A DNA stretch of 57,632 bases from an uncultured Acidimicrobiaceae bacterium (GTDB taxonomy: Bacteria > Actinomycetota > Acidimicrobiia > Acidimicrobiales > Ilumatobacteraceae), in contig CAIXIJ010000139.1 of NCBI GenBank assembly GCA_903919455.1, forward strand, positions 1 through 57,632, in the 5' to 3' direction. The first letter of the stretch is position 1, and each line of letters begins with the position of its first letter. Below, one piece after another: positions 44,292-54,976 of the stretch. Under the pieces are notes generated by a model. It worked only from the letters and a program-made list of their open reading frames with translations. It made no database searches and was not told the DNA's origin. The position numbers and the translations under genes are program-made.

Positions 44292-45971
44292 ATGGACGAC
44301 GAACCCCACGCACACGACCCGTGGCTGCTGTCCTCGTCGATGCCGTCCGAGCCATTACCACCCACGATTGAACGGCCCGCATGGCAGCGAGCCTTAGCGG
44401 TCACTGCAGCCGTCGCCGTGGTGCTCGGCGGGGTGGTCTTGCTGACGCGAGGTACGGGCACGCAGCACGCCGCACCACCGTCCACGAACCCGTCGACGAG
44501 TTCGCCGACGCCAAGCACCGAACCCGCCACGTCGACGGATGGCGCGTGGATCGCAACAGCACCCAGTCCGTTGTCGCCGCGCAACCACAGCCAGGGTGTC
44601 TGGACCGGCAGTGAGGTGGTGGTGTTCGGTGGCACCACCCAGCCCGACTGCCCGGCGTGCGACTACTACGGATACGGCGACACCCTCCACGACGGCGCCA
44701 TCTACAGCCCCATCGACGACACCTGGAGAGCAATGTCCCCTCTACCGGACGAAGCCTCGTACGTGGGTCAGTCGGTGGCATTCCCGCGCGACGTGTACTT
44801 CTACTCGCTGTTCCAGCCCGACGTGACAGCGTCAGTACAGACCTACCGCCTGTGGCACTACTCGGTCGCCAACGATGAGTGGACCGAGGTGCCGCTGCCC
44901 TCGCAGGTGCCACAGGCGTTCGCACTCACCACCCGCAGCAATGCACTGCTGCTGTACTCCGCAACCGACGAGTTCGGCCTGGCGCCCGACTGGTCGTTCG
45001 ACCCCACCACGAACGAATGGACGGCACTCCCCGACGACGGTTTCGACGCATCGTTCGACCGCCAGATCCTGGAGGTGGGTGGGAACTTGATGCTCTTCAA
45101 TCACTCCATCGCGCTCGTACAGAACGGCGTCACATCGATACCGACGCGCATGGCCAGGTTCGATGACGCCACGCAACAGTGGACCCAACTGCCGGAGAAC
45201 GTCGAGGTGCAGTCGCTGTGGTTCGCCGATGGCTCGTGGGTGGTCAGCCCCCAGTTCGGCGTGTACGACGCCCGCTTCGACATGTGGCGGCCGGGTCCGG
45301 CGAACCCGCCCGATGACGTGATGGGTGCCATCGGGCCGTCGGTGTCGTACTTCGGCGGCGTGCGCGGTGCGGTGCTCGATATGCGCACCAATACATGGAT
45401 CAGGATCCCCACCCTGCCCGACGGGCTCGACGACGAGAGCGGCGCCACCACGGTCACCGCTGGCCGCGACGCGTTCACGTTCGGCGGCACCACCGGGATG
45501 CAACCGAACGACCCGGTACACAACCAGTCGTACATCTGGCACGCGCCCGCACCGCCTGCCCCGCATGTGGCGGAGACCGACCAGACCGGACTCGACGCAG
45601 CCCTCATCGATCTCGGCATCGACCGCGGCGCCGCACCAACCGAAGTGGTGCAGCTCGGCGACGCGATCTTCTGCGGTTACGAGGACAACGGCATCAGCGG
45701 CGACGACGACGTGCAGGAATCGGCCCGCCGTTGCTTCGTCGACCGACTCGCCAAGCACGAGCCAGCCATGTTCATCACTCAGCGCCCCACAACGGAAGGC
45801 GATCCCGTCGCCACGGTGTTCGTCACCGGTCACGACGGCACCGTGCGCACCTACATCGACGCCACACGCGACACGTTCGGCTCCGGGAGATGGGACGTTG
45901 TGGACTGCACGCCGTTCAGCGCATCCGACTCGGGTACCCACCTCGACTTCGCCTGCGCCCAAGCCATCTGA
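44292..45971 (+). CDS. Anchored Kelch-like beta-propeller protein
   Basis: 559 residues. After a short cytoplasmic N terminus a single helix (about 33-52, AVTAAVAVVLGGVVLLTRG) and a Thr/Ser/Pro spacer lead to repeated blades of the form VVVFGGTT..., WHYSVANDEWTEVPLPS, SFDPTTNEWTALPDDG, VYDARFDMWRPGP, each with Trp and a Gly pair, i.e. a Kelch-type propeller outside the cell. The last 120 residues have two Cys and are unrecognised. GAGGAGGG ribosome site. Function unknown. Confidence 0.72.
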   Translation: MDDEPHAHDPWLLSSSMPSEPLPPTIERPAWQRALAVTAAVAVVLGGVVLLTRGTGTQHAAPPSTNPSTSSPTPSTEPATSTDGAWIATAPSPLSPRNHSQGVWTGSEVVVFGGTTQPDCPACDYYGYGDTLHDGAIYSPIDDTWRAMSPLPDEASYVGQSVAFPRDVYFYSLFQPDVTASVQTYRLWHYSVANDEWTEVPLPSQVPQAFALTTRSNALLLYSATDEFGLAPDWSFDPTTNEWTALPDDGFDASFDRQILEVGGNLMLFNHSIALVQNGVTSIPTRMARFDDATQQWTQLPENVEVQSLWFADGSWVVSPQFGVYDARFDMWRPGPANPPDDVMGAIGPSVSYFGGVRGAVLDMRTNTWIRIPTLPDGLDDESGATTVTAGRDAFTFGGTTGMQPNDPVHNQSYIWHAPAPPAPHVAETDQTGLDAALIDLGIDRGAAPTEVVQLGDAIFCGYEDNGISGDDDVQESARRCFVDRLAKHEPAMFITQRPTTEGDPVATVFVTGHDGTVRTYIDATRDTFGSGRWDVVDCTPFSASDSGTHLDFACAQAI

Positions 45972-46093
45972 CGCGAGCGTGCCCGTCGAACCAGGGATAC
46001 CGGGCCGTTCGACTGGGTTCGCGACGGGTCGGTCGGGATATCGTCCGACGTCGTTCCTGCGGCCCGTCGGCCGCCCCTGAGGAGGTCCCCACC

Positions 46094-47341
46094 ATGTCCG
46101 AAGCATTCATCATCGATGCCGTCCGCACCCCTCGCGGCATCGGCAAGGTCGGCAAGGGCGCCCTCGCCGACATCCACCCGCAGCAGCTGGGCGCCACCGT
46201 GCTCTCCGCCCTGCGCGACCGCAACGACCTCGACACTTCGGCCGTCGACGACGTGATCTTCGGCACCAGCATGCAGGTGGGCACCCAGGGCGGCGACCTC
46301 GCCCGCATGGCACTGCTCGATGCCGGCTACGACGTGCGCGCGTCGGGCGTGACGCTCGACCGTTTCTGCGGCTCGGGCATCACCACCACCAACATGGCCG
46401 CCGCCAGCGTGATGGCCGGCATGGAAGATGTGGTCATCGCCGGTGGCTGCGAGATGATGAGCCTTCACCCGGCCCTCGGTGCCGCTCAGGCTGGCGTGCG
46501 CGCCCCGCTGATGGACGCCGGCAACTTGCGCCTGCGTGCCCGTCACCCGCAGACCCACCAGGGTGTGGCCGCCGATGCCATCGCCTCGCTGGAAGGCATC
46601 CCGCGTGAGGCACTCGACCACCTGGCCTACGTGTCGCAGCAGCGCGCCGCCCGCGCCATCGCCGAGGGCCGCTTCGACAAGAGCCTCGTGCCGGTCTACA
46701 AGGAGGACGGCACGCTCGCCCTCGACCGCGAAGAGTTCCCCCGTCCGCAGACCACGCTCGAGGGCTTGGCTCAGCTGGCCCCGTCGTTCGGCGGCATGGC
46801 CGACTTCCCGCTCGACGAGAGCGGCATCACGCTGCGCTCGATGGTGCTGGCCCGCTACCCCGGCCTCGACATCACCCACGTGCACCACGCCGGTAACAGC
46901 TCTGGCGTGGTCGACGGTGCAGCCGCCATCCTGGTGGCCAGCGCCGGCGCCGTGAAGGCCAACGGCTGGACCCCGCGTGCCCGCATCGTGGCCGCCGCCA
47001 ACATGGGCGACGACCCGACGCTCATGCTCAACGCCCCGGTGCCGGCCGCCAAGAAGGTGCTCGCCAAGGCCGGTCTCAGCATCGACGACATCGACCTGTT
47101 CGAGATCAACGAAGCGTTCTCGGTGGTGGCGGAGAAGTTCATCCGCGACCTCGACCTCGACCGCGACAAGGTGAACGTGAACGGCGGCGCCATGGCGCTG
47201 GGTCACCCCATCGCCGCGACCGGCGCGATGCTCATTGGCACCGTGCTCGACGAGCTCGAGCGCACCGGTGGCCGCTACGGCCTGGTCACCATGTGCGCCG
47301 CCGGCGGCATGGCCCCCGCCATCATCATCGAACGCATCTGA
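46094..47341 (+). CDS. Thiolase (acetyl-CoA acyltransferase)
   Basis: 415 residues. Active-site Cys in LDRFCGSGITTTNMA, His in GGAMALGHPIAATGAM, second Cys in VTMCAAGGMAPAI; NEAFSVVAEKF is the NEAF motif. It condenses or cleaves 3-ketoacyl-CoA. The GAGGAGGT ribosome site is an almost perfect anti-16S match and codon use is the most biased in the window, so it should be highly expressed. No beta-oxidation partner is adjacent. Confidence 0.92.
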   Translation: MSEAFIIDAVRTPRGIGKVGKGALADIHPQQLGATVLSALRDRNDLDTSAVDDVIFGTSMQVGTQGGDLARMALLDAGYDVRASGVTLDRFCGSGITTTNMAAASVMAGMEDVVIAGGCEMMSLHPALGAAQAGVRAPLMDAGNLRLRARHPQTHQGVAADAIASLEGIPREALDHLAYVSQQRAARAIAEGRFDKSLVPVYKEDGTLALDREEFPRPQTTLEGLAQLAPSFGGMADFPLDESGITLRSMVLARYPGLDITHVHHAGNSSGVVDGAAAILVASAGAVKANGWTPRARIVAAANMGDDPTLMLNAPVPAAKKVLAKAGLSIDDIDLFEINEAFSVVAEKFIRDLDLDRDKVNVNGGAMALGHPIAATGAMLIGTVLDELERTGGRYGLVTMCAAGGMAPAIIIERI

Positions 47342-47369
47342 GCGTTCTCACCTCCGGAGTGCCGATCGT

Positions 47370-47407
47370 GGGCACCGGATGCATCCTCGGGGACGCATCT
47401 GGTGCCC
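47370..47407 (+). terminator. Hairpin after thiolase
   Basis: GGGCACCGGATGC (47370-47382) pairs with GCATCTGGTGCCC (47395-47407), 13 bp with one G-T wobble and a 12-nt loop. Begins 28 bp after the stop; likely thiolase terminator. Confidence 0.7.
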
Positions 47408-47470
47408 GCGTCGCGTGTCGGGGGCTCAGCAAGGCCACGTCGGCGGGCATACTGGTGCGCGTTATCGTGC

Positions 47471-47514
47471 GGGTTTCCTCGCGCGCCCGCCCCTCTGGGG
47501 GCGGCGCGAAACCC
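47471..47514. terminator. Second hairpin (GGGTTT...AAACCC)
   Basis: Nested arms GGGTTT/AAACCC, CGCG/CGCG and CCGCCCC/GGGGCGG with small bulges. Function undetermined: a backup terminator or part of an untranslated RNA. Confidence 0.5.
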
Positions 47515-47618
47515 AGACGCCCAGCGTACGCAAGGGCCAGCGAGTCGGCGGGTTACGCGAAGTGAGTCGATCGGTTACGTGGCTCCGGTCCTGCCCTTCG
47601 CCGTGCCCTGCAGGCGAT

Positions 47619-47639
47619 GGCGGCACCGGTAGTGCCGCC
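47619..47639. terminator. Third hairpin (GGCGGCAC/GTGCCGCC)
   Basis: Perfect 8-bp arms around CGGTA, 19 bp before the -35 element of the next gene. Confidence 0.5.
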
Positions 47640-47657
47640 CCACCTGCACTCACACTA

Positions 47658-47685
47658 TTGACACCTTCCTGACGCGGAGTACTGT
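47658..47685 (+). promoter_or_regulatory. Sigma-70-like promoter of the lipoprotein/PG-binding pair
   Basis: -35 TTGACA (47658-47663, perfect consensus), 16-bp spacer, -10 TACTGT (47680-47685). The predicted transcript starts near 47692 and carries a GAGGGGGAG ribosome site before ATG 47720, unlike the leaderless style of most neighbours. Confidence 0.6.
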
Positions 47686-47719
47686 GGAAAGTCAACGCCC
47701 GCCAAAGAGGGGGAGTCCG

Positions 47720-48343
47720 ATGCCATCAGGGATCTGTCGCTGGTCTTCAATGCCTCGTCATTTGCGCTGGCTCTCTCCGTTGGCGCTCTTGTTATCGGCC
47801 TGTGGAAATCCACACGGTGTCGAACCGGCACACGACGATTCTGCTGTTCGGACACTGGGTTCGGTACTCACGACGGAGAGCGCTTTGGCGCACACGTCCG
47901 ATCCGGTCACCGTGGGTTCAACGCCAACCGCCTCGACGGTATCCTCCGCATTTCGCACCATCCCTACAGAGATCGGGACCATCTCCTATTCGCTCCCAAA
48001 GGGCGCAACTGCCGATCCGGTCCGTCCACCGCCAATTCCGGACTTCGGGCTGGCGATCGAGCAATGGATCGTTCCCAACTGTTGCCGACTCATGATCACC
48101 TTGCAAAAGGTCCAACCGCTCCTTCCTGACACTCAGCTGGTCTCGGAGCAGGAAGTGAACGGGATCATCTGGCGGACATACGGTATTGGGCCCGAGGATG
48201 GAAGCCAGATCACTGCAGTTGGGATGAAGGGGGCTCTCTCTGTCCTGGTTAGTACACAGACATCGTCGGGGGACCGATCGGGTGCCGCCGCCTCCGTGTC
48301 AGTGGTCGCCGACCTGCTTCAGTCAATCACGTTTACCGGATAG
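47720..48343 (+). CDS. Lipoprotein of unknown function, atypical composition
   Basis: 207 residues. Basic start, hydrophobic core and lipobox LLLSACGN (Cys28). The mature part contains FRTIPTEIGTISYSLPKG and WIVPNCCRLMITLQKV, and ends VSVVADLLQSITFTG, resembling small extracytoplasmic domains, but no family is recognised. Many third positions are A or T, unlike neighbours, suggesting transfer. 12 bp upstream of the PG-binding gene and probably co-transcribed. Confidence 0.68.
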   Translation: MPSGICRWSSMPRHLRWLSPLALLLSACGNPHGVEPAHDDSAVRTLGSVLTTESALAHTSDPVTVGSTPTASTVSSAFRTIPTEIGTISYSLPKGATADPVRPPPIPDFGLAIEQWIVPNCCRLMITLQKVQPLLPDTQLVSEQEVNGIIWRTYGIGPEDGSQITAVGMKGALSVLVSTQTSSGDRSGAAASVSVVADLLQSITFTG

Positions 48344-48355
48344 TGAGGTCGATAG

Positions 48356-48922
48356 GTGAGCACGGCACGAAAGACGAAGGCGACACTGCTCGCAACTATT
48401 GCAATCTTGTCCTCTTTGGCTGCAACGGGCCGACCCGCATATGCCGGGACAGGATTCAATCACTTCTGGTGGGCCGACTCGGGAATTACCTTGAGCCAGA
48501 CCAGCTACAAGTACTCGAACATGAGTGCCTTCTGGCAGGCCATCGTGAATGCGGACGGTTGCATCATTCCAGTCGATGGCGTCTATGGACCAACGACCAC
48601 CTGGTACACAGCGACGTTCCAGAACCATCTTTTCTCGACCAACAACGGTGGCGTCATGACGCCTGGATGGCTGAACTACTTCCAGTTGGCAACGGACACG
48701 ACCCCTGGGCACTACCCGCGGCTTCGACAGACCGGATTCATCGATGGTTACGGCACGGTTCACTATGGCTACTACGCCGGCCAAGAAAGCTTTACCACAG
48801 AATTGGGCTGGAACCCGATTTCGGCTCAGTGGCTCTTCTCTCAGTACCCCATCTCCAACCCACACGCCCTCATCCCCGCCACGCCTAGTCGAACCGTGGG
48901 CTCCGTTTCTGCATGTGCATAG
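48356..48922 (+). CDS. Secreted protein with a peptidoglycan-binding-like repeat
   Basis: 188 residues, GTG start. Signal peptide ends AATGRPAYAGTG (AxA cleavage near residue 30). The mature region has FWQAIVNADGCIIPVDGVYG and TTTWYTATFQNHL, the DG-x-G-x-x-T pattern of PG_binding_1 modules, followed by an aromatic-rich beta region (GTVHYGYYAGQESF). It probably attaches to cell wall. Balanced codon use as in the lipoprotein before it. No catalytic domain. Confidence 0.68.
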   Translation: MSTARKTKATLLATIAILSSLAATGRPAYAGTGFNHFWWADSGITLSQTSYKYSNMSAFWQAIVNADGCIIPVDGVYGPTTTWYTATFQNHLFSTNNGGVMTPGWLNYFQLATDTTPGHYPRLRQTGFIDGYGTVHYGYYAGQESFTTELGWNPISAQWLFSQYPISNPHALIPATPSRTVGSVSACA

Positions 48923-49171
48923 GTCAGAACGTGGCGGTCTCGATGGAGCTCAGCTCGGCACCAGCTGTCTGACGTCCACAACCGCCGCCAGATGGCCGAA
49001 TCACTGAACTCGTGGATCAAGGCCCACCTGCCCGGCAGGCGAGCACGCAGCTACGGCCAGGACAACCAACACCTCGACCTGCTGTTCATGGGCATCGCCC
49101 GCAACACGCTGTCCGCGCTACACCACCGCGACCGAAACGCCCAGGCACCACCGGGCACCACCGCCGCCTGA
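48923..49171 (+). pseudogene. Probable transposase C-terminal remnant
   Basis: An open frame without its own start runs from the previous stop to TGA 49169-49171. It reads RRQMAESLNSWIKAHLPGRR, then RSYGQDNQHLDLLFMGIARN and TLSALHHR. The ESLNxxIKxxLP...LDLL...ARNTL pattern looks like the end of a DDE transposase. All upstream catalytic parts are missing. Identification rests on pattern memory, so it is tentative. Confidence 0.4.
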
Positions 49172-49189
49172 CCGGCCCAGATCAACCCA

Positions 49190-49207
49190 GCCGCCCCACG
49201 GGGCGGC
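49190..49207. terminator. Tight GC hairpin after the transposase remnant
   Basis: GCCGCCCC and GGGGCGGC separated by AC: 8 perfect base pairs. Lies 18 bp after the remnant's stop. Confidence 0.55.
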
Positions 49208-49234
49208 ATCGCCGCGCCCGGAAACCGGCGACGA

Positions 49235-49262
49235 GTTCAGTTCGCACGAACTGAACAGTTCG
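49235..49262. repeat. Overlapping CAGTTCG palindromes
   Basis: GTTCAGTTCG and CGAACTGAAC around CA form a perfect 22-bp palindrome (49235-49256). CGAACTG (49247-49253) also pairs with CAGTTCG (49256-49262), so CAGTTCG appears three times in alternating orientation. A fourth copy (CAGTTCGTAC) lies near 49293. May be an operator cluster or the terminal structure of a mobile element. Confidence 0.6.
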
Positions 49263-49320
49263 ACCGCCCGAAACGGCAACTAGCCTGCCAGTTCGTACAA
49301 ACAGGGCGGCGTTCGCTCCC

Positions 49321-49337
49321 CCGCGACAGTTTCGCGG
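49321..49337. repeat. Small hairpin before tRNA-Lys
   Basis: CCGCGA and TCGCGG around CAGTT, 20 bp upstream of the tRNA. Possible processing or promoter-proximal structure. Confidence 0.35.
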
Positions 49338-49357
49338 CGGGTTCTGCACCGCCCCCC

Positions 49358-49433
49358 GCCCCTCTAGCTCAATGGTTAGAGCAGTGGACTTTTAATCCAT
49401 TGGTTCAGGGTTCGAGTCCCTGGGGGGGCACCA
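49358..49433 (+). tRNA. tRNA-Lys (anticodon UUU)
   Basis: Complete cloverleaf: acceptor GCCCCTC/GGGGGGC with one wobble, D stem GCTC/GAGC, anticodon stem GTGGA/TCCAT with loop CTTTTAA (anticodon TTT at 49391-49393), T arm CAGGG-TTCGAGT-CCCTG, discriminator A, and an encoded CCA (49431-49433). Decodes AAA/AAG. The 3' side is followed at once by the SnoaL-like gene, with no duplicated tRNA end seen in this window. Confidence 0.95.
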
Positions 49434-49456
49434 CGCCAACCACCGGCAGTGCCGGG

Positions 49457-49846
49457 TCAGTCTGCGGCGTACAGCACCATCGCCTGGCGGGTGTCGAGGT
49501 ACTCCTCGAGCCGGGTGATGCGGCCGCCCTCCACCCAGAACCGGATCATCGCCGGCATCTTCAGCGGGCCTCCTCTGGCATCGCCGGTGAGCACGTGTTG
49601 CTGCACGAAACCATCGGGTGCGACGAAGCGACGGATCTCGGTGTACTGCAGGTTGCTGGCCCGCCGATGCAGGTCGACCAACGTGAGCAGGTTCTCGTCG
49701 GGTGACTGATCGCGCTGGTCGAAGTTGTGCCAAATGGTGGCATCGGGCGCGTAGATGGCCCGCACGCCCTCCACGTCGCCAGCCGCGATGGCGGCCACCA
49801 ATCGGTCGCCGATGTCGTGCATCGCTGCCTCGGTCAGTTCGCTCAT
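49457..49846 (-). CDS. SnoaL-like / NTF2-fold protein
   Basis: 129 residues. GDRLVAAIAAGDVEGVRAIYAPDATIWHNFD opens the NTF2-like cone; LVDLHRR, IRFWVEGGRITRLEEYLD closes it, as in SnoaL and ketosteroid-isomerase-like proteins. Such small proteins are isomerases, cyclases or dehydratases, and the residues here do not settle which. Start at 49846 is supported by TACTCT 6 nt upstream. Confidence 0.8.
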   Translation of the reverse strand: MSELTEAAMHDIGDRLVAAIAAGDVEGVRAIYAPDATIWHNFDQRDQSPDENLLTLVDLHRRASNLQYTEIRRFVAPDGFVQQHVLTGDARGGPLKMPAMIRFWVEGGRITRLEEYLDTRQAMVLYAAD

Positions 49847-49852
49847 GTCCGC

Positions 49853-49858
49853 AGAGTA
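49853..49858 (-). promoter_or_regulatory. -10-like TACTCT of the SnoaL-like gene
   Basis: Minus-strand TACTCT ends 6 nt before the ATG at 49846; leaderless pattern. Confidence 0.45.
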
Positions 49859-49885
49859 GTGGGATGCGAGTGGCACACTCGTCGG

Positions 49886-50809
49886 GTGGGTCACGACCAC
49901 TCCAACCACCACTCGCACGGGCACGCGTCGCTGCGCGCCGGGGCCCGACACCTTGGTCGGTTGAAGATCGCATTCGCACTCATCGTCGGCTTCTTCTTGG
50001 TGCAGGTGGTGGTGGGCCTGGCCACCAACTCCCTCGCCTTGCTGAGCGACGCCGGCCACATGGCCACCGACGCACTGGGGTTGGGCATGGCCCTGGCCGC
50101 CATCACTGCCGCGAACCGTGCCGACCACTCCAGCCATCGCACCTTCGGTCTGTACCGACTGGAGATCCTGGCAGCGCTGGCCAACGCGGTGCTGCTGTTC
50201 GCCGTCGCCATCTATGTGCTCGTGGAAGCGATTCTTCGCCTCCGCGACCCGGCCGAGGTGCACTCCACACCCGTGCTGGTGGTCGGCATCATTGGGCTCG
50301 TCGTGAACGTGATCGCGTTCCTTCTGCTGCGCGAGGGCGCACAGGAGAGCATGAACATGCGCGGCGCCTACCTCGAGGTGGTGAGCGACATGCTCGGCTC
50401 CGTCGGTGTCATCGTGTCGGCCATCGTGTTGAGCGTCACGGGCTGGAGCTGGGTAGACCCGATCGTCGGTGCCGGCATCGGCCTGTTCATCCTTCCCCGG
50501 GCGTATCGCCTTGGTCGCGACGCGGTGCGGGTGCTGGTGCAAGCGGCACCACACGAACTCGACGTCCACGACATCGAGCAAGCACTACTGGAACTCGACC
50601 ATGTGGTGGGCGTGCACGATCTGCACGTGTGGACGCTCACCAGTGAGATGCACGTGCTGTCCGCGCACGTGCAGGTGAGCGACGACCCGGCCATGCGGGG
50701 CGTGCTGCCCGCTGCGCAAAAGCTGCTGACCGAGCGCTTCGGCCTGGACCACTCCACGCTGCAGATCGAAGTGGCTGGCGAACCCGACTGCCCCGACATC
50801 GGCTGGTGA
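49886..50809 (+). CDS. Cation diffusion facilitator (Zn2+/metal exporter)
   Basis: 307 residues, GTG start. A His-rich N terminus (GHDHSNHHSHGH) is followed by six helices. Helix II metal site NSLALLSDAGHMATDALG and helix V VSDMLGSVGVI hold the HxxxD / DxxxD residues of CDF proteins. The C-terminal ferredoxin-like domain (DVHDIEQALLELDHVVGVHD) ends with a likely regulatory zinc-binding part. Exports zinc or similar metals by proton antiport. Upstream of the copper module but separated by the hydratase gene. Confidence 0.91.
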   Translation: MGHDHSNHHSHGHASLRAGARHLGRLKIAFALIVGFFLVQVVVGLATNSLALLSDAGHMATDALGLGMALAAITAANRADHSSHRTFGLYRLEILAALANAVLLFAVAIYVLVEAILRLRDPAEVHSTPVLVVGIIGLVVNVIAFLLLREGAQESMNMRGAYLEVVSDMLGSVGVIVSAIVLSVTGWSWVDPIVGAGIGLFILPRAYRLGRDAVRVLVQAAPHELDVHDIEQALLELDHVVGVHDLHVWTLTSEMHVLSAHVQVSDDPAMRGVLPAAQKLLTERFGLDHSTLQIEVAGEPDCPDIGW

Positions 50810-50838
50810 CGACGTCCGCGCAGTGCGAGAATGACGGG

Positions 50839-51606
50839 GTGACGTACACGCACCTCATCGTCGAGACCGACGGCCCGTTCACCACCATCACCCTCAATCG
50901 TCCCGAGAAGCGCAACGCCCTCGCACTCGACGTGATGCTGGAACTCACCCAGGCCTTCCGCGATGTGGGCGCCAGCAACGCGACCGGCGTGATCCTCGCG
51001 GCCAACGGTCCGGTGTTCTCCGCCGGCCACAACTTCGGCGACATGGCAGGCGCCACGTTCGAACAGGCCAAACATCTCTTCGACGTGTGCACCGAGATGA
51101 TGGACACCGTGCAATCGATCCCCCAGGTGGTCATCGCCCGCGTGCATGCGCTCGCCACCGCGGCGGGCTGCCAGCTGGTGGCCACCTGCGACCTGGCGGT
51201 GGCCGCCAACAGCGCCGGCTTCGCCATCCCCGGCGGCAAGGGCGGCCTGTTCTGCCACACCCCACTCGTTGCCGTGGCCCGCAACGTGGGCCGCAAGCGC
51301 GCCATGGAGATGGCCCTCACCGGCGATGCCATCGACGCCGCCACGGCTCAGGAATGGGGCCTCATCAACCGCGCCGTGCCCGACGAGGAACTGCACACCG
51401 CCACCCACGACCTGCTGGCCCGGGCCACCCGCGGCAGCGCCACCAGCAAGGGGCTCGGCAAGCGCGGCTTCTACGCGCAGGCGGGATTAGACCAGACCCA
51501 GGCGTACGAGTTCGCCGTGCACACCATGGCCAGTGCCGCCGTCACCCCCGACGCCCAGGAGGGCATCGCTGCATTCCTCGAGAAGCGACGGCCGAACTTC
51601 GGGTGA
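50839..51606 (+). CDS. Enoyl-CoA hydratase-related protein (ECHDC3-like)
   Basis: 255 residues from GTG 50839 (GTG 50806, overlapping the CDF stop, is possible). Crotonase loops: ITLNRPEKRNALALDVML, FSAGHNFGDMAG (oxyanion hole), ATAAGCQLVATCDLAVA. Where hydratases have catalytic Glu pairs it reads PGGKGGLFCHTP, so classical hydration chemistry is doubtful, as in the ECHDC3 branch. Followed by a terminator-like hairpin at 51611. Confidence 0.85.
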   Translation: MTYTHLIVETDGPFTTITLNRPEKRNALALDVMLELTQAFRDVGASNATGVILAANGPVFSAGHNFGDMAGATFEQAKHLFDVCTEMMDTVQSIPQVVIARVHALATAAGCQLVATCDLAVAANSAGFAIPGGKGGLFCHTPLVAVARNVGRKRAMEMALTGDAIDAATAQEWGLINRAVPDEELHTATHDLLARATRGSATSKGLGKRGFYAQAGLDQTQAYEFAVHTMASAAVTPDAQEGIAAFLEKRRPNFG

Positions 51607-51610
51607 ACCT

Positions 51611-51642
51611 TGCGACCCATCCGTGTCGGGTGGGTTGTCGCA
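51611..51642. terminator. Nested hairpin between enoyl-CoA hydratase and copper module
   Basis: TGCGAC (51611-51616) pairs with GTCGCA (51637-51642); inside, CCATCC pairs with GGGTGG (one wobble) around GTGTC, with a GTT bulge. Begins 5 bp after the hydratase stop. Confidence 0.6.
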
Positions 51643-51745
51643 GTGCTCCCCGCGCCTGCAACATGTGAGATAGAGAAGCGTTGCATGTCGTCCGCCGGGA
51701 ACTCTGCGAGCCTCGGGCACGACCTGATCACGGACGAGGAAAGGT

Positions 51746-51958
51746 ATGCCGACGATGAGTGAGATCCAGTTCCACGTGCCGGGCATGAGCTGCGGTCACT
51801 GCGAAACCGCCGTGAAGAGCGAAGTGGGCAAGGTGGCGGGCGTCGCAGGCGTGGCCGTCGACCTGGAGACCAAGATCGTCACCGTCACCGGCGAAGCCTT
51901 CGAGCGCGATGCCATCGTGGCCGCCATCGACGAAGCCGGTTACGAAGTCGTCGTCTGA
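51746..51958 (+). CDS. copZ: CopZ-like heavy-metal-associated metallochaperone
   Basis: 70 residues, a single HMA domain with FHVPGMSCGHCETAVKSEVG (MxCxxC copper site). A GAGGAAAGG ribosome site favours ATG 51746; ATG 51755 is possible. It should carry Cu(I) to the ATPase encoded two genes downstream. One base separates its stop from the next start. Confidence 0.87.
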   Translation: MPTMSEIQFHVPGMSCGHCETAVKSEVGKVAGVAGVAVDLETKIVTVTGEAFERDAIVAAIDEAGYEVVV

Positions 51959-51959
51959 C

Positions 51960-52751
51960 ATGTCGGTGTGGGCGCGGCTCGGCGCATTTGTGGTGGTGCT
52001 GTTGGGCACCTTCGGCACGGCCTACGCCATGGGCGAACGCATGCCTGGCCACACCCACTCCGGCCACAGCCACTCGCATGTCGCTCCGCTGGTGCCACCT
52101 GCATTCGAATCGGGCAACTACCGCCTCCTCACCGACAGCGTGGTGGGGGCCAAGGGCGAGCCGCGGGTCGTTTCGTTCCATCTGCAGACGATCGATATGG
52201 AGGAGCGCGTCACCGAGTTCCAGATGGTCCACGAGGCACTGCTTCACGCAGTGATGATTCGGCCCGACCTGAGCGGTTACGAGCACTTCCACCCCACCAT
52301 CTCAGATCGTGGTTCGTGGGAGGTCACCCTCGACGAACCCGGCCAGTGGCACCTGATCTTCGACAGCACACCGAAGGGCGAGAGTGCGCCCATCGTGCTC
52401 AGCGCAAACCTCGACGACGAAGTCTCGGTCGAGCCGGTACCGCTGCCCGCCCCCGACGACGACGTGGTGGTGGATGGGCTGCACCTCATTCGCAGTGGCC
52501 TGAACTTCAACGTCTACAACGAGGACGGCACGCCAGCCACGGGCCTCGAGCCATACCTAGGCCAACCCGCCCACCTCGTGGCCATCCGCCAGGGCGATCT
52601 GTCGTACGTGCACCTGCATGCAATGAGCGAGATGGACGGCATGTTCATGTTCGGCGACACGTTGCCGCAACCCGGCACGTACCGGCTATTCCTGCAGTTC
52701 GGCCACAACGGCACGTTGCTCACCATCCCGTTCACCGTGGCGCAGCCATGA
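51960..52751 (+). CDS. Copper-module extracytoplasmic protein of unknown function
   Basis: 263 residues, first helix SVWARLGAFVVVLLGTFGTAYA as signal/anchor. A His-rich stretch PGHTHSGHSHSH follows. The body has two similar beta-rich halves, with HEALLHAVMIRPDLSGYEHFHP and HLHAMSEMDGMFMFG, both rich in His/Met. The layout suggests Cu binding outside the membrane. It lies between copZ and copA with 1 bp and 4 bp (ATGA) joints, so it belongs to the same response. I do not recognise a named family. Confidence 0.68.
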   Translation: MSVWARLGAFVVVLLGTFGTAYAMGERMPGHTHSGHSHSHVAPLVPPAFESGNYRLLTDSVVGAKGEPRVVSFHLQTIDMEERVTEFQMVHEALLHAVMIRPDLSGYEHFHPTISDRGSWEVTLDEPGQWHLIFDSTPKGESAPIVLSANLDDEVSVEPVPLPAPDDDVVVDGLHLIRSGLNFNVYNEDGTPATGLEPYLGQPAHLVAIRQGDLSYVHLHAMSEMDGMFMFGDTLPQPGTYRLFLQFGHNGTLLTIPFTVAQP

Positions 52752-54976
52752 GCCTCGACGCCAACACACCCGTCATCGCCATCCCGCCGGGGCTGGATCA
52801 ACTCGACCTCGAACTCACGGGCATGACCTGCGCGTCGTGCGCAGGTCGCATCGAGAAGAAACTCAACCGACTCGCCGGCGTGACCGCCTCCGTGAACTAC
52901 GCCACCGAGAAGGCGAGCGTGTCGTTCGATGCCGCCAAGGTGAGCACCGACCAACTGGTCGCAGCCGTGGAGAGCATCGGGTACGGCGCCATCGTGCCGA
53001 CCGATGAACCCAGCGACGAACCCGACCCCAACGAGGTCCGTCTGGCCGACCTGCGCCGCCGACTGGTGCTCGCCACGGTGCTGGGCGTGCCCGTACTGCT
53101 CCTCAGCATGGTGCCGGCGTTCCAGTTCCGCGGATGGCAGTGGGTGTGCCTTGTCTTGGCCACACCGGTCGCTGCGTGGTCGGCCCTCCCCTTTCACCGG
53201 GCGGCATGGAAGAACCTCCGCCAGGCCGAAGCGAGCATGGACACGTTGGTGTCGGTGGGCGTCATCGCGGCCTACGGCTGGAGCCTCTACGCGTTGCTCA
53301 CCACCTCCGCTGGCGACCTGGGCATGAAGATGCCAATGTCGCTCAGCCCGGCACGCGGCGAGAACCATCACCTCTACTTCGAGGTGGCCAGCACCACCGT
53401 CGCCCTCATCCTCGCCGGCCGTTACTTCGAGGTGAAGGCCAAGCGTCGCGCCGGTGGTGCACTGAAGGCTCTGCTCGCCCTCGGGGCCGACACCGCCAAC
53501 GTGCTGCAGGCCGACGGCACCGAACTCATCCGACCCGCGAGCGTGCTCAAGGTCGGTGACCGCTTCGTCGTGCGCCCCGGCGACCGCATCGCCACCGACG
53601 GCGAAGTGGAAGAGGGCACATCGGCAGTCGACATGAGCCTGGTCACGGGCGAGAGCGTGCCGGTGGACGTGGCCCCCGGCAGCGGCGTCACTGGCGCCAC
53701 CATCAACACCAATGGGCGCCTCGTGGTGCGTGCCACCCGCGTGGGTAAGGACACCGCCCTCGCTCAGATGGCCCGGTTGGTGGAGGCCGCTCAGAGCGGC
53801 AAGGCACCCGTGCAGCGTCTCGCCGACCAGATCGCCGGCGTGTTCGTGCCCATCGTCATCGTGCTCGCCGCCGCCACGTTGGGCTTCTGGTTCTCTCGCT
53901 CGGGCAGCTTCACCGAAGCCATCGGCCCGGCCGTGGCCGTGCTCATCATCGCCTGCCCCTGCGCACTCGGCCTCGCCACCCCCACGGCGCTGCTGGTGGG
54001 CACCGGCCGCGGCGCACAACTCGGCATTCTCATCAAGGGTCCCGAGGTGTTGGAGAGCACCCGCCAGGTCGACACCGTCGTGCTCGACAAGACGGGCACC
54101 GTCACCACCGGCCAGATGGAAGTGGTGGGTGTCACCCCGGTGGGCGATGCCGATGCCAACGAAACCCTTCGCCTCGCCGCAGCCGTGGAACGCGCGAGCG
54201 AACACCCCATCGCCAAAGCCGTGGTGCGCGCCGCCGACGCCGCAGCACTCCCTGCCACACCCGTCAACGACTTCACCTCCCAGATGGGCGTGGGTGCCAC
54301 CGGCACCGTCGAAGGCCACACCGTGTGGGTGGGTCGCGCCGAGGCTGCCGACGTGCCCGTGCACAGCGAAGGCCGCACCGTCATCTCGGTGAAGGTGAAC
54401 GGCGCTCTGGTCGGCACCATCGCCATCGCCGACACCGTGAAGCCCACCAGCGCAGAAGCCATCGCCCGGTTCCGGCGACTCGGGCTGCGGCCCGTGTTGC
54501 TCACCGGCGACAACCGCGCCACCGCTGAAGCCGTCGCCGACCAGGTGGGCATCGAATCCAGCGATGTCATCGCAGGCGTGCTACCCGATCAGAAGGTGGC
54601 CGAGATTCAACGCCTCCAGGCCGAAGGCCGCGTGGTGGCAATGGTGGGCGATGGCGTGAACGATGCTGCCGCCCTGGCGCAGGCCGACCTCGGCATTGCG
54701 ATGGGCACCGGCACCGATGTGGCCATCGAAGCCAGTGAGCTCACGCTGGTGCGCGCCGACCTGAACGCCGCAGCCGATGCCATTCGCCTCAGCAGGCACA
54801 CGCTCCGCATCATCAAGGGCAACCTGTTCTGGGCCTTCGCCTACAACGTGGCTGCAATCCCGTTGGCGATGTCGTGGCGCCTCTCACCCGTGGTGGCCGG
54901 TGCCGCCATGGCCTTCAGCAGTGTGTTCGTGGTGAGCAACAGCCTGCGGCTGCGCCACTTCAAACCCGGCCACTGA
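52748..54976 (+). CDS. copA: Copper-transporting P1B-type ATPase
   Basis: 742 residues, exporting Cu(I) from the cytosol. One N-terminal HMA domain (GMTCASCAGR, Cys28/Cys31), then helices with the metal-site Cys403-Pro-Cys405 (ACPCALGLATPTALLVG). Phosphorylated Asp447 in LDKTGTVTTG; HP motif SEHPIAKA; MVGDGVNDAAALAQADLGIA near the end. The last helices carry YNVAAIPLA and MAFSSVFVVSNSLRL, as in Cu(I) P1B-1 pumps. Translationally coupled to the preceding gene. Confidence 0.94.
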   Translation: MSLDANTPVIAIPPGLDQLDLELTGMTCASCAGRIEKKLNRLAGVTASVNYATEKASVSFDAAKVSTDQLVAAVESIGYGAIVPTDEPSDEPDPNEVRLADLRRRLVLATVLGVPVLLLSMVPAFQFRGWQWVCLVLATPVAAWSALPFHRAAWKNLRQAEASMDTLVSVGVIAAYGWSLYALLTTSAGDLGMKMPMSLSPARGENHHLYFEVASTTVALILAGRYFEVKAKRRAGGALKALLALGADTANVLQADGTELIRPASVLKVGDRFVVRPGDRIATDGEVEEGTSAVDMSLVTGESVPVDVAPGSGVTGATINTNGRLVVRATRVGKDTALAQMARLVEAAQSGKAPVQRLADQIAGVFVPIVIVLAAATLGFWFSRSGSFTEAIGPAVAVLIIACPCALGLATPTALLVGTGRGAQLGILIKGPEVLESTRQVDTVVLDKTGTVTTGQMEVVGVTPVGDADANETLRLAAAVERASEHPIAKAVVRAADAAALPATPVNDFTSQMGVGATGTVEGHTVWVGRAEAADVPVHSEGRTVISVKVNGALVGTIAIADTVKPTSAEAIARFRRLGLRPVLLTGDNRATAEAVADQVGIESSDVIAGVLPDQKVAEIQRLQAEGRVVAMVGDGVNDAAALAQADLGIAMGTGTDVAIEASELTLVRADLNAAADAIRLSRHTLRIIKGNLFWAFAYNVAAIPLAMSWRLSPVVAGAAMAFSSVFVVSNSLRLRHFKPGH

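Follow-up and report, generated by a model that had tools for sequence, protein, structure and literature searches.

A cargo insertion at the 5' end of a tRNA-Lys gene in an uncultured Acidimicrobiaceae bacterium, and the tRNA-associated transposase family that probably moved it

How did a lipoprotein gene and a secreted-protein gene of atypical composition come to lie directly before a tRNA-Lys gene, and what could the pair be doing there? The question is raised by a 57,632-nt stretch of DNA (the window) from an uncultured Acidimicrobiaceae bacterium, whose draft genome (150 contigs, 97% complete, 2% contaminated) is probably of metagenome origin. We conclude that window positions 47497-49356 are very probably a non-autonomous cargo transposon resembling an insertion sequence (IS), moved in trans by an Asp-Asp-Glu (DDE) transposase from a family whose insertion sites are tRNA 5' ends. 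The original prediction, made from the window sequence alone, had described a small atypical patch with secreted proteins, a transposase scrap and palindromes beside the tRNA gene. The contents of this patch proved to be real: a lipoprotein open reading frame (ORF), a secreted-protein ORF, the C-terminal scrap of a transposase, a perfect hairpin at 49235-49256 and tRNA-Lys(ttt). Its composition is atypical as well. The guanine-cytosine (GC) content of the two-gene stretch is 57.9% compared to 66.7% for the window, and GC at third codon positions is 0.64 and 0.69 in the cargo ORFs compared to 0.82-0.91 in the six neighbour ORFs measured.

The insertion became visible in a comparison with a genome that lacks it. 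The search of the genus covered 15 genomes, the window's own included; the other 14 are 63-99% complete. The empty site was found in G007, another species of the genus, between a thiolase gene on the left and a cation-efflux gene on the right, the proteins of both being listed at 100% identity to those of the window. The spacing of the two genes is about 680 bp in G007 and 2,550 bp in the window. The G007 sequence aligns to window positions 45999-47496 (98.6% identity) and 49355-53448 (95.9%), with 93.3% farther to the left. Everything between the aligned flanks is missing from G007, where the junction sequence is present in a single copy at the start of tRNA-Lys. The insert, 1,860 bp from 47497 to 49356 with ends fixed to a base or two, terminates in 18-bp inverted repeats that are complementary at 15 of 18 positions, and a direct repeat of 9 bp, CGCCCCTCT, lies on either side of it (11 bp with the ambiguous bases). 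Among 16,371 pairs of exact nine-mer direct repeats lying 300-20,000 bp apart in the window, the insert's pair was the only one to enclose an inverted repeat matching at 14 or more of 18 positions. An acquired cargo insertion at tRNA-Lys, as originally predicted, is thus strongly supported by the empty site, the terminal repeats and the target duplication. The true left end lies 193 bp outside the predicted start of the patch. The features of the element and of its target are as follows.

47488..47496, no strand: left copy (9 bp) of the target duplication, CGCCCCTCT, identical to 49357-49365 and single in the empty site (locus L090 of G007)
47497..47514, + strand: left terminal inverted repeat GGGGGCGGCGCGAAACCC, complementary to the right end at 15 of 18 positions; the G003 and G010 elements start alike
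47550..47557, + strand: subterminal repeat 1 of the left end, GGGTTACG, at element position 54
47572..47579, + strand: subterminal repeat 2 of the left end, CGGTTACG, at element position 76, 22 bp past repeat 1
47720..48343, + strand: cargo gene 1, a lipoprotein of 207 aa with lipobox LSAC (read by eye) and, in model residues 75-207, a PsbP/Mog1/Tsi3-like fold
48356..48922, + strand: cargo gene 2, a secreted protein of 188 aa with a GTG start, a divergent PG_binding_1-like domain and a conserved C-terminal part
48965..49171, + strand: C-terminal remnant of a DDE transposase, about 68 codons; similarity begins at 48965 and the stop codon is at 49169-49171
49235..49256, no strand: perfect hairpin with a 10-bp stem, between the transposase remnant and the right end
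49281..49286, + strand: outward-facing -10-like hexamer TAGCCT, a candidate replacement promoter for the tRNA
49339..49356, - strand: right terminal inverted repeat, with homologous right ends in G003 and G010
49357..49365, no strand: right copy (9 bp) of the target duplication, equal to tRNA-Lys bases -1 to +8
49358..49433, + strand: tRNA-Lys(ttt), the target gene, kept intact by the duplication

The two cargo ORFs are separated by 12 bp. A canonical promoter had been predicted before them; its TTGACA is exact (47658-47663), while the best -10 element found by eye, TACTGT, 16 bp on, agrees at 3 of 6 positions and a promoter scanner found none. In an Rfam scan of 45900-51000 the tRNA was the sole model to pass its gathering score.

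The element is non-autonomous because its transposase is reduced to the last 68 or so codons. This remnant is 57-73% identical to six places in two genomes of the same genus, G003 and G010, including 69% identity to residues 415-475 of a 482-aa transposase in G003. It matches the family profile with an E value of about 2e-21, and Pfam DDE_Tnp_1 with 0.0021, under the cut-off. Both genomes have one tRNA-Lys(ttt) whose 5' end directly adjoins a homologous right end. On contig C21 of G003 we observed four right ends, each followed by the same 9 bp, ATGCCCCTC, after which comes a new left end at three junctions and the remainder of tRNA-Lys at the other. The contig thus holds a tandem array in which elements of 2,487, 17,352 and 17,329 bp stand behind one more right end. 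The last element of the array has the full 482-aa transposase with a 328-aa recombinase-like gene directly before it. G003 has both this full module and ends homologous to those of the window copy. Read from its sequence, the G003 island is one assembled through stacking of tRNA-Lys elements. Its cargo as seen by eye (L116-L118, 43 kb) includes ATPases resembling DUF4143, Fic-like proteins and a catabolic/ABC-transport cluster, and further an SMC-like ATPase, an EcoRI-like methylase and a DUF262/HNH-like protein. In another genome, G008 (L059, about 1105-1337, contig C29), the neighbour of tRNA-Lys is again this efflux gene, and the sequence just before the tRNA is similar to the right end of the window element (79% over 208 columns that include the tRNA), with a decayed terminus; therefore the same locus was apparently hit there too.

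Is a tRNA gene the usual neighbour of this transposase? We sampled relatives in three overlapping sets, namely 149 relatives of the window's genome (15 with a match at E 1e-3), 298 genomes of the order (14 at 1e-10) and 396 genomes of the phylum (19 at 1e-15), and retained 44 distinct genes whose C-terminus was confirmed and whose downstream sequence extended for 300 bp or more. In 31 of these 44 a tRNA gene on the same strand follows 167-281 bp past the end of the match; it is a tRNA for Lys, Arg, Thr, Ala or Phe. Among loci fetched for other genes, which were not length-matched to the transposase loci, a tRNA was present in 5 of 78 (0 of 42 and 5 of 36). Of the five, three belong to the target locus itself (window, G007), one is the G008 locus and one a tRNA-Pro. 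L001, L005, L007-L014 and L023 were kept out of the control; these are the window itself or loci of the cargo pair in larger or repeated form. The sequences sampled show, then, that most copies of the family lie 167-281 bp upstream of diverse tRNA genes and on the same strand. At two loci, L183 (G337) and L166 (G196), the tRNA-start sequence is repeated several times past the right end in GCCCTGG or GGCCAGG units, as if a target duplication had been expanded. The search of phages gave no transposase relatives. Plasmids gave six records, in all of which the transposase is annotated as a hypothetical protein; in the three that we inspected (L157, L158 and L159, from Streptomyces and Mycobacterium) the recombinase-like and DDE genes overlap, near a helix-turn-helix regulator, and the former is labelled integrase, site-specific integrase or hypothetical protein. 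Plasmids are perhaps the vehicle of this gene pair between hosts.

The two genes form a conserved module. In five full-length transposases D161, D261 and E421 are invariant, and a catalytic role of these residues, i.e., DDE chemistry, would be in keeping with their conservation. The best Pfam score of the transposase is 18.3 bits compared to a cut-off of 23 (DDE_Tnp_1 clan), and 6 of 9 members match PF01609 at E values up to 0.1. An assignment to IS1182 was dropped, since NF033551 scores 15.1 bits in the 482-aa relative and 11.4 in the remnant, compared to a cut-off of 270. For 21 distinct transposases the N-terminus was confirmed and the sequence before it was long enough to hold a partner gene; a profile search found the partner there, directly upstream and in the same orientation, in 19. 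Nine of the 19 had built the profile, which leaves 10 of 12 as the independent figure. The G003 partner scores 16.5 bits with PF00589 (cut-off 27.1). This family is matched at E values up to 0.1 by 3 of 9 partners and by none of the three plasmid partners, one of which passes PF02899, the N-terminal domain. In an alignment with a single canonical recombinase, where the first Arg could not be scored with confidence, all 12 partners have I, V or L in the column of the catalytic Tyr, and none of them keeps the His of HxxR or that of LGH. The Arg of HxxR was retained in five, and four had a Tyr two columns from the catalytic one. The alignments thus show a two-gene module in which a tyrosine-recombinase-like protein without the catalytic tyrosine and histidines is encoded directly before the transposase. 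In the window element no remnant of the partner was found; the best profile match in the window (E 0.37) lies outside the element.

To compare the ends of the elements, a left end was accepted where 8-10 bases of the tRNA start recur exactly and the sequence after this copy agrees with the inverted right end at 7 or more of its first 8 positions. Of 21 elements, 6 have such an end (window, G003, G616, G092, G065 and G142), compared to 3 of 4,200 targets chosen at random from these sequences. Two further candidates, L148 and L150, were weak and were dropped under the exact test with the random-target control. The exact 9-bp duplication is clear in the window and in the G003 array; the copy in the other elements has 8-10 bases. 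A motif like CGGTTACG recurs at about positions 54 and 76, with both copies in 6 of 11 left ends (the window's included), one copy in three and none in two, compared to a background of 0.024 per 154 bp; the two without a pattern match show variants of the motif by eye. On the right, [CG]TAGNNT occurs 40-95 bp before the tRNA in 18 of 31 ends, compared to 104 of 6,200 random windows in the same loci. Both patterns were picked after the ends had been viewed. Because insertion parts the tRNA from its own upstream region, and the right ends carry a -10-like motif, the data suggest that the element may supply a replacement promoter.

These observations can be joined into one mechanism. The catalytically dead recombinase-like partner would recognise the tRNA gene, thereby selecting the target, and direct the DDE transposase there. 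The 9-bp duplication, covering tRNA-Lys bases -1 to +8, would preserve the whole tRNA coding sequence, and the right end of the element would provide its new promoter. In the window copy the cargo would have displaced most of the transposition module, and this copy would be mobilised in trans. The last step is one that we infer, because neither another transposase copy nor, hence, an autonomous copy was found in the window's genome.

Several further results weigh against this reading, along with the missing autonomous copy. No tRNA lies within 300 bp in 13 of the 44 relatives. Three of the 13 are array-internal copies of G003 and G010, three more (L099, L137, L183) resemble array junctions by eye (right end, tRNA start, left end), and L171 has a tRNA-Lys at 599 bp; L095, L103, L165, L166, L168 and L188 are unexplained. 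The three plasmid relatives inspected have no tRNA in the 13 kb around each, and none of their transposases matches any Pfam family. More generally, the transposase stays under every curated Pfam and NCBIfam cut-off that was tried. The partner is absent in 2 of the 21 transposases, and 15 of the 21 elements have no left end in the sequence examined, several of them on short contigs. Many of the sampled genomes are fragmented.

Could the recombinase-like protein itself be the enzyme? The locus would then be a tyrosine-recombinase integrative element, with the 9-bp spacer as the crossover core of an att site, the inverted GGGGGCGG arms as core sites and the DDE gene as a passenger. The tandem junctions, CCGCCCCC-9 bp-GGGGGCGG, do resemble an attP core flanked by inverted arms. 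tRNA genes are common targets of tyrosine integrases, and a recombinase-like gene belongs to the module; of 12 partners, 5 keep the Arg of HxxR and 4 have the nearby Tyr. On the other hand, all 12 have lost the catalytic Tyr and both His residues, the partners score under the PF00589 cut-off, and it is the transposases (five of five) that keep D, D and E invariant. Moreover, the window element retains transposase sequence and no trace of the partner, and the insertion has terminal inverted repeats and lies at the 5' end of the tRNA. We therefore consider an integrative element of this kind very unlikely. Even less credible is the account without any insertion, in which the genes were inherited vertically, the fate that the original prediction named as its alternative, or in which the contig is an assembly chimera. 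It could draw on the state of the draft genome (150 contigs, 2% contamination, probable metagenomic origin) and on a C-terminal remnant of the secreted protein in one genus mate. The empty site with its single target copy and flanks of 96-99% identity, the matched inverted repeats and duplication, and the absence of an intact pair from all 14 genus mates searched speak against it. The trans-mobilised cargo transposon remains the explanation that we very much prefer.

The cargo is less readily interpreted. The original prediction had asked whether the two genes travel together, and we found that they do: intact homologs of the secreted protein occur in three further genomes, at L012 (Ilumatobacter sp. 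MO_167.B34, 56% identity), L008/L013 (43%) and L009/L014 (30%), and a lipoprotein-like gene lies directly upstream at all four intact loci, with gaps of 12 and 4 bp or overlaps of 4 and 32 bp. The upstream lipoproteins are similar at three of the loci (relatives at L012 4295-4978 and L008 921-1562), while that of L009 has no similarity detectable by BLASTP. Ends of the element family were not found around the pair in the sequence examined of L012, L013 and L014, therefore the pair also exists outside this type of element. Among the 149 genomes the secreted protein was found in four, the window's own included, and one of these is a remnant. A C-terminal remnant was observed in the genus mate G005 (L010 442-590, contig C41), which suggests an earlier arrival followed by decay. 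A search of the same 149 genomes with the single lipoprotein sequence matched the window's own genome alone, and missed the known upstream neighbours. That genome has a second, divergent copy of the lipoprotein (L011 4876-5725, - strand, G000 contig C16), whose lipoprotein signal is in another frame than its matching domain; no gene for a secreted partner was seen close to it. Beside the best relative of the pair, at L012 5582-7170 (- strand), we observed a pYEATS-TIR gene and a second TIR gene, so that these surroundings are possibly a defence neighbourhood.

The secreted protein had been described as peptidoglycan-binding. This holds for its family, which contains the PG_binding_1 domain; the window protein itself has no Pfam match. 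With PF01471 (cut-off 23) the L014 homolog scores 30.2 bits and the L013 homolog 20.4, the L012 homolog has no match at E values up to 1, and the family profile matches the structure 1lbu with an E value of 4.7e-6. Across the four sequences the C-terminal part has no invariant His, Cys, Asp or Glu, and hence no obvious enzyme is recognised in it. A structure predicted from the four sequences had a predicted local distance difference test score (pLDDT) of 35 and was not used. The profile matches of this protein across the phylum (146 of 396 genomes) were rejected as evidence of spread, since the listed matches outside the window are mostly to the peptidoglycan-binding stretch, and 8 of 11 loci of another search were rejected for the same reason. 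Searches of phages, plasmids and viral contigs gave no relatives of the secreted protein, PHROGs gave none for it and an E value of 0.079 at best for the lipoprotein, and PADLOC matched neither. Among NCBIfam models the lipoprotein matches one lipoprotein model over its signal region, with 16.4 bits compared to a cut-off of 200.

A model of the lipoprotein was built from a three-sequence alignment; its mean pLDDT is 67.7, and between residues 81 and 207 most block means are 80-90. It matches folds of the PsbP and Mog1 type. In the VIA ranking BT_1490 came on top (Z 12.4), followed by Tsi3 (10.5-10.9), and the list also contains Apa (10.4), TplEi (9.9), Mog1 (9.6), LpqN (9.2) and PA3488 (8.1), the last of which we take to be an immunity protein. 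For Tsi3, Foldseek gave an E value of 8e-4 to 3wa5_B, and VIA a Z of 10.9 over 109 residues with a root-mean-square deviation of 3.0 to 4n7s_B. The model thus has a Tsi3-type fold, one that is common to non-immunity proteins too.

The original prediction had seen in the pair a factor of antagonism or phage resistance. An antagonism cassette does fit the immunity-like lipoprotein model and the peptidoglycan-binding family, and the modelled fold favours an effector-immunity pair as plausible, short of proof. The model is also like PsbP, Mog1 and mycobacterial lipoproteins. As the most likely function we tentatively propose a cell-wall-directed effector encoded with a surface-anchored immunity lipoprotein. 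It is a serious possibility that the two proteins instead serve cell-envelope maintenance or surface adhesion. The fold of the lipoprotein is also that of PsbP, Mog1, LpqN, MTC28, Apa and DcrB, with BT_1490 as the top chain, and the secreted C-terminal part, without obvious enzyme residues in the four sequences, and the lack of a PADLOC match are in line with such a role. A housekeeping pair would be less expected to ride on a mobile element and to have its secreted member in 4 of 149 genomes, one of them with a remnant, and several of the best solved matches of the lipoprotein (Tsi3, TplEi and, presumably, PA3488) are immunity proteins. A third reading is superinfection exclusion, in which the pair would keep phages from adsorbing or DNA from entering the cell. 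It would suit the surface location and mobility of the genes, the restriction- and defence-like genes seen by eye in the stacked G003 elements and the TIR and pYEATS genes adjoining the L012 pair. We consider it unlikely, given that PADLOC recognises neither protein and that the phage, plasmid and viral-contig searches returned no relative of the secreted one.

If all parts are put together, the family would be an undescribed class of transposon: a dead recombinase-like guide and a DDE transposase acting at tRNA 5' ends, with duplication that keeps the whole tRNA, an outward promoter and tandem stacking into metabolic and defence-like islands, of which the window copy would be a stripped, trans-mobilised member carrying an effector and its immunity lipoprotein. 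We put the chance of this complete picture only just below even. When a genomic island lies at a tRNA gene, it is usually attributed to a tyrosine integrase, and the site is typically the tRNA 3' end. If the picture is true, the family builds islands at tRNA 5' ends through DDE transposition, with an integrase fold reused as a pure targeting module. The family also gives a rule for locating cargo islands of Actinomycetota that annotation overlooks, as the transposase is labelled a hypothetical protein. With two genes, short defined ends and a defined target, the module might yield a compact tool for site-directed insertion.

Known systems share parts of this design. The lipoprotein is reminiscent of the Tse3-Tsi3 pair, with Tsi3 among the closest solved structures to its model (Z 10.9) and Tse3 titled a peptidoglycan muramidase effector; unlike in that pair, the secreted partner has a peptidoglycan-binding domain only, with no recognised catalytic domain, and no sequence similarity was shown. 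The likeness to IS1182 is a weak C-terminal similarity (15.1 bits for the full-length relative, compared to the cut-off of 270); to our knowledge, a two-gene module and a tRNA target are not features of IS1182. Tn7 itself makes a 5-bp duplication with its TnsABC machinery.

Mobile insertion cassettes, such as MIC231 of Bacillus cereus and mic-qnrD, are described in the consulted part of the source as elements that are mobilised in trans, their cargo lying between inverted repeats with a target duplication, while a functional transposase is missing; in MIC231A1 the cargo includes a gene for a D-stereospecific endopeptidase (PMC3913671). The window element is like them in having passenger genes inside inverted repeats, a target duplication and no functional transposase. 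Unlike mic-qnrD, for which that part of the account gives a 2-bp duplication and mentions no tRNA target, it keeps a transposase remnant and targets a tRNA 5' end (PMC3913671). Transposition beside tRNA genes is known from Tn7-like elements and CRISPR-associated transposons (CAST; types I-B2, I-D and V-K), which, in the portion consulted, rely on a separate target-selecting factor and choose targets through TniQ/TnsD or guide RNAs (PMC11406308); here we see one single DDE-like gene, paired with a dead tyrosine-recombinase-like protein, and a 9-bp duplication. Dada transposons are eukaryotic DDE elements with family-specific tRNA or snRNA gene targets; they insert inside genes with duplications of 6-7 bp, and the part of the account consulted mentions no recombinase-like partner (PMC3706591), whereas the present family inserts at the 5' end, with 9 bp and a partner. 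The open PubMed Central literature, so far as its texts were accessible, gave no account of this transposase family. Judged from these partly consulted sources, tRNA-aimed transposons (Tn7-like, Dada) and transposase-less cargo cassettes are already known, and what appears to be new is the combination of a dead recombinase-like partner, insertion at the 5' end, promoter replacement and tandem stacking.

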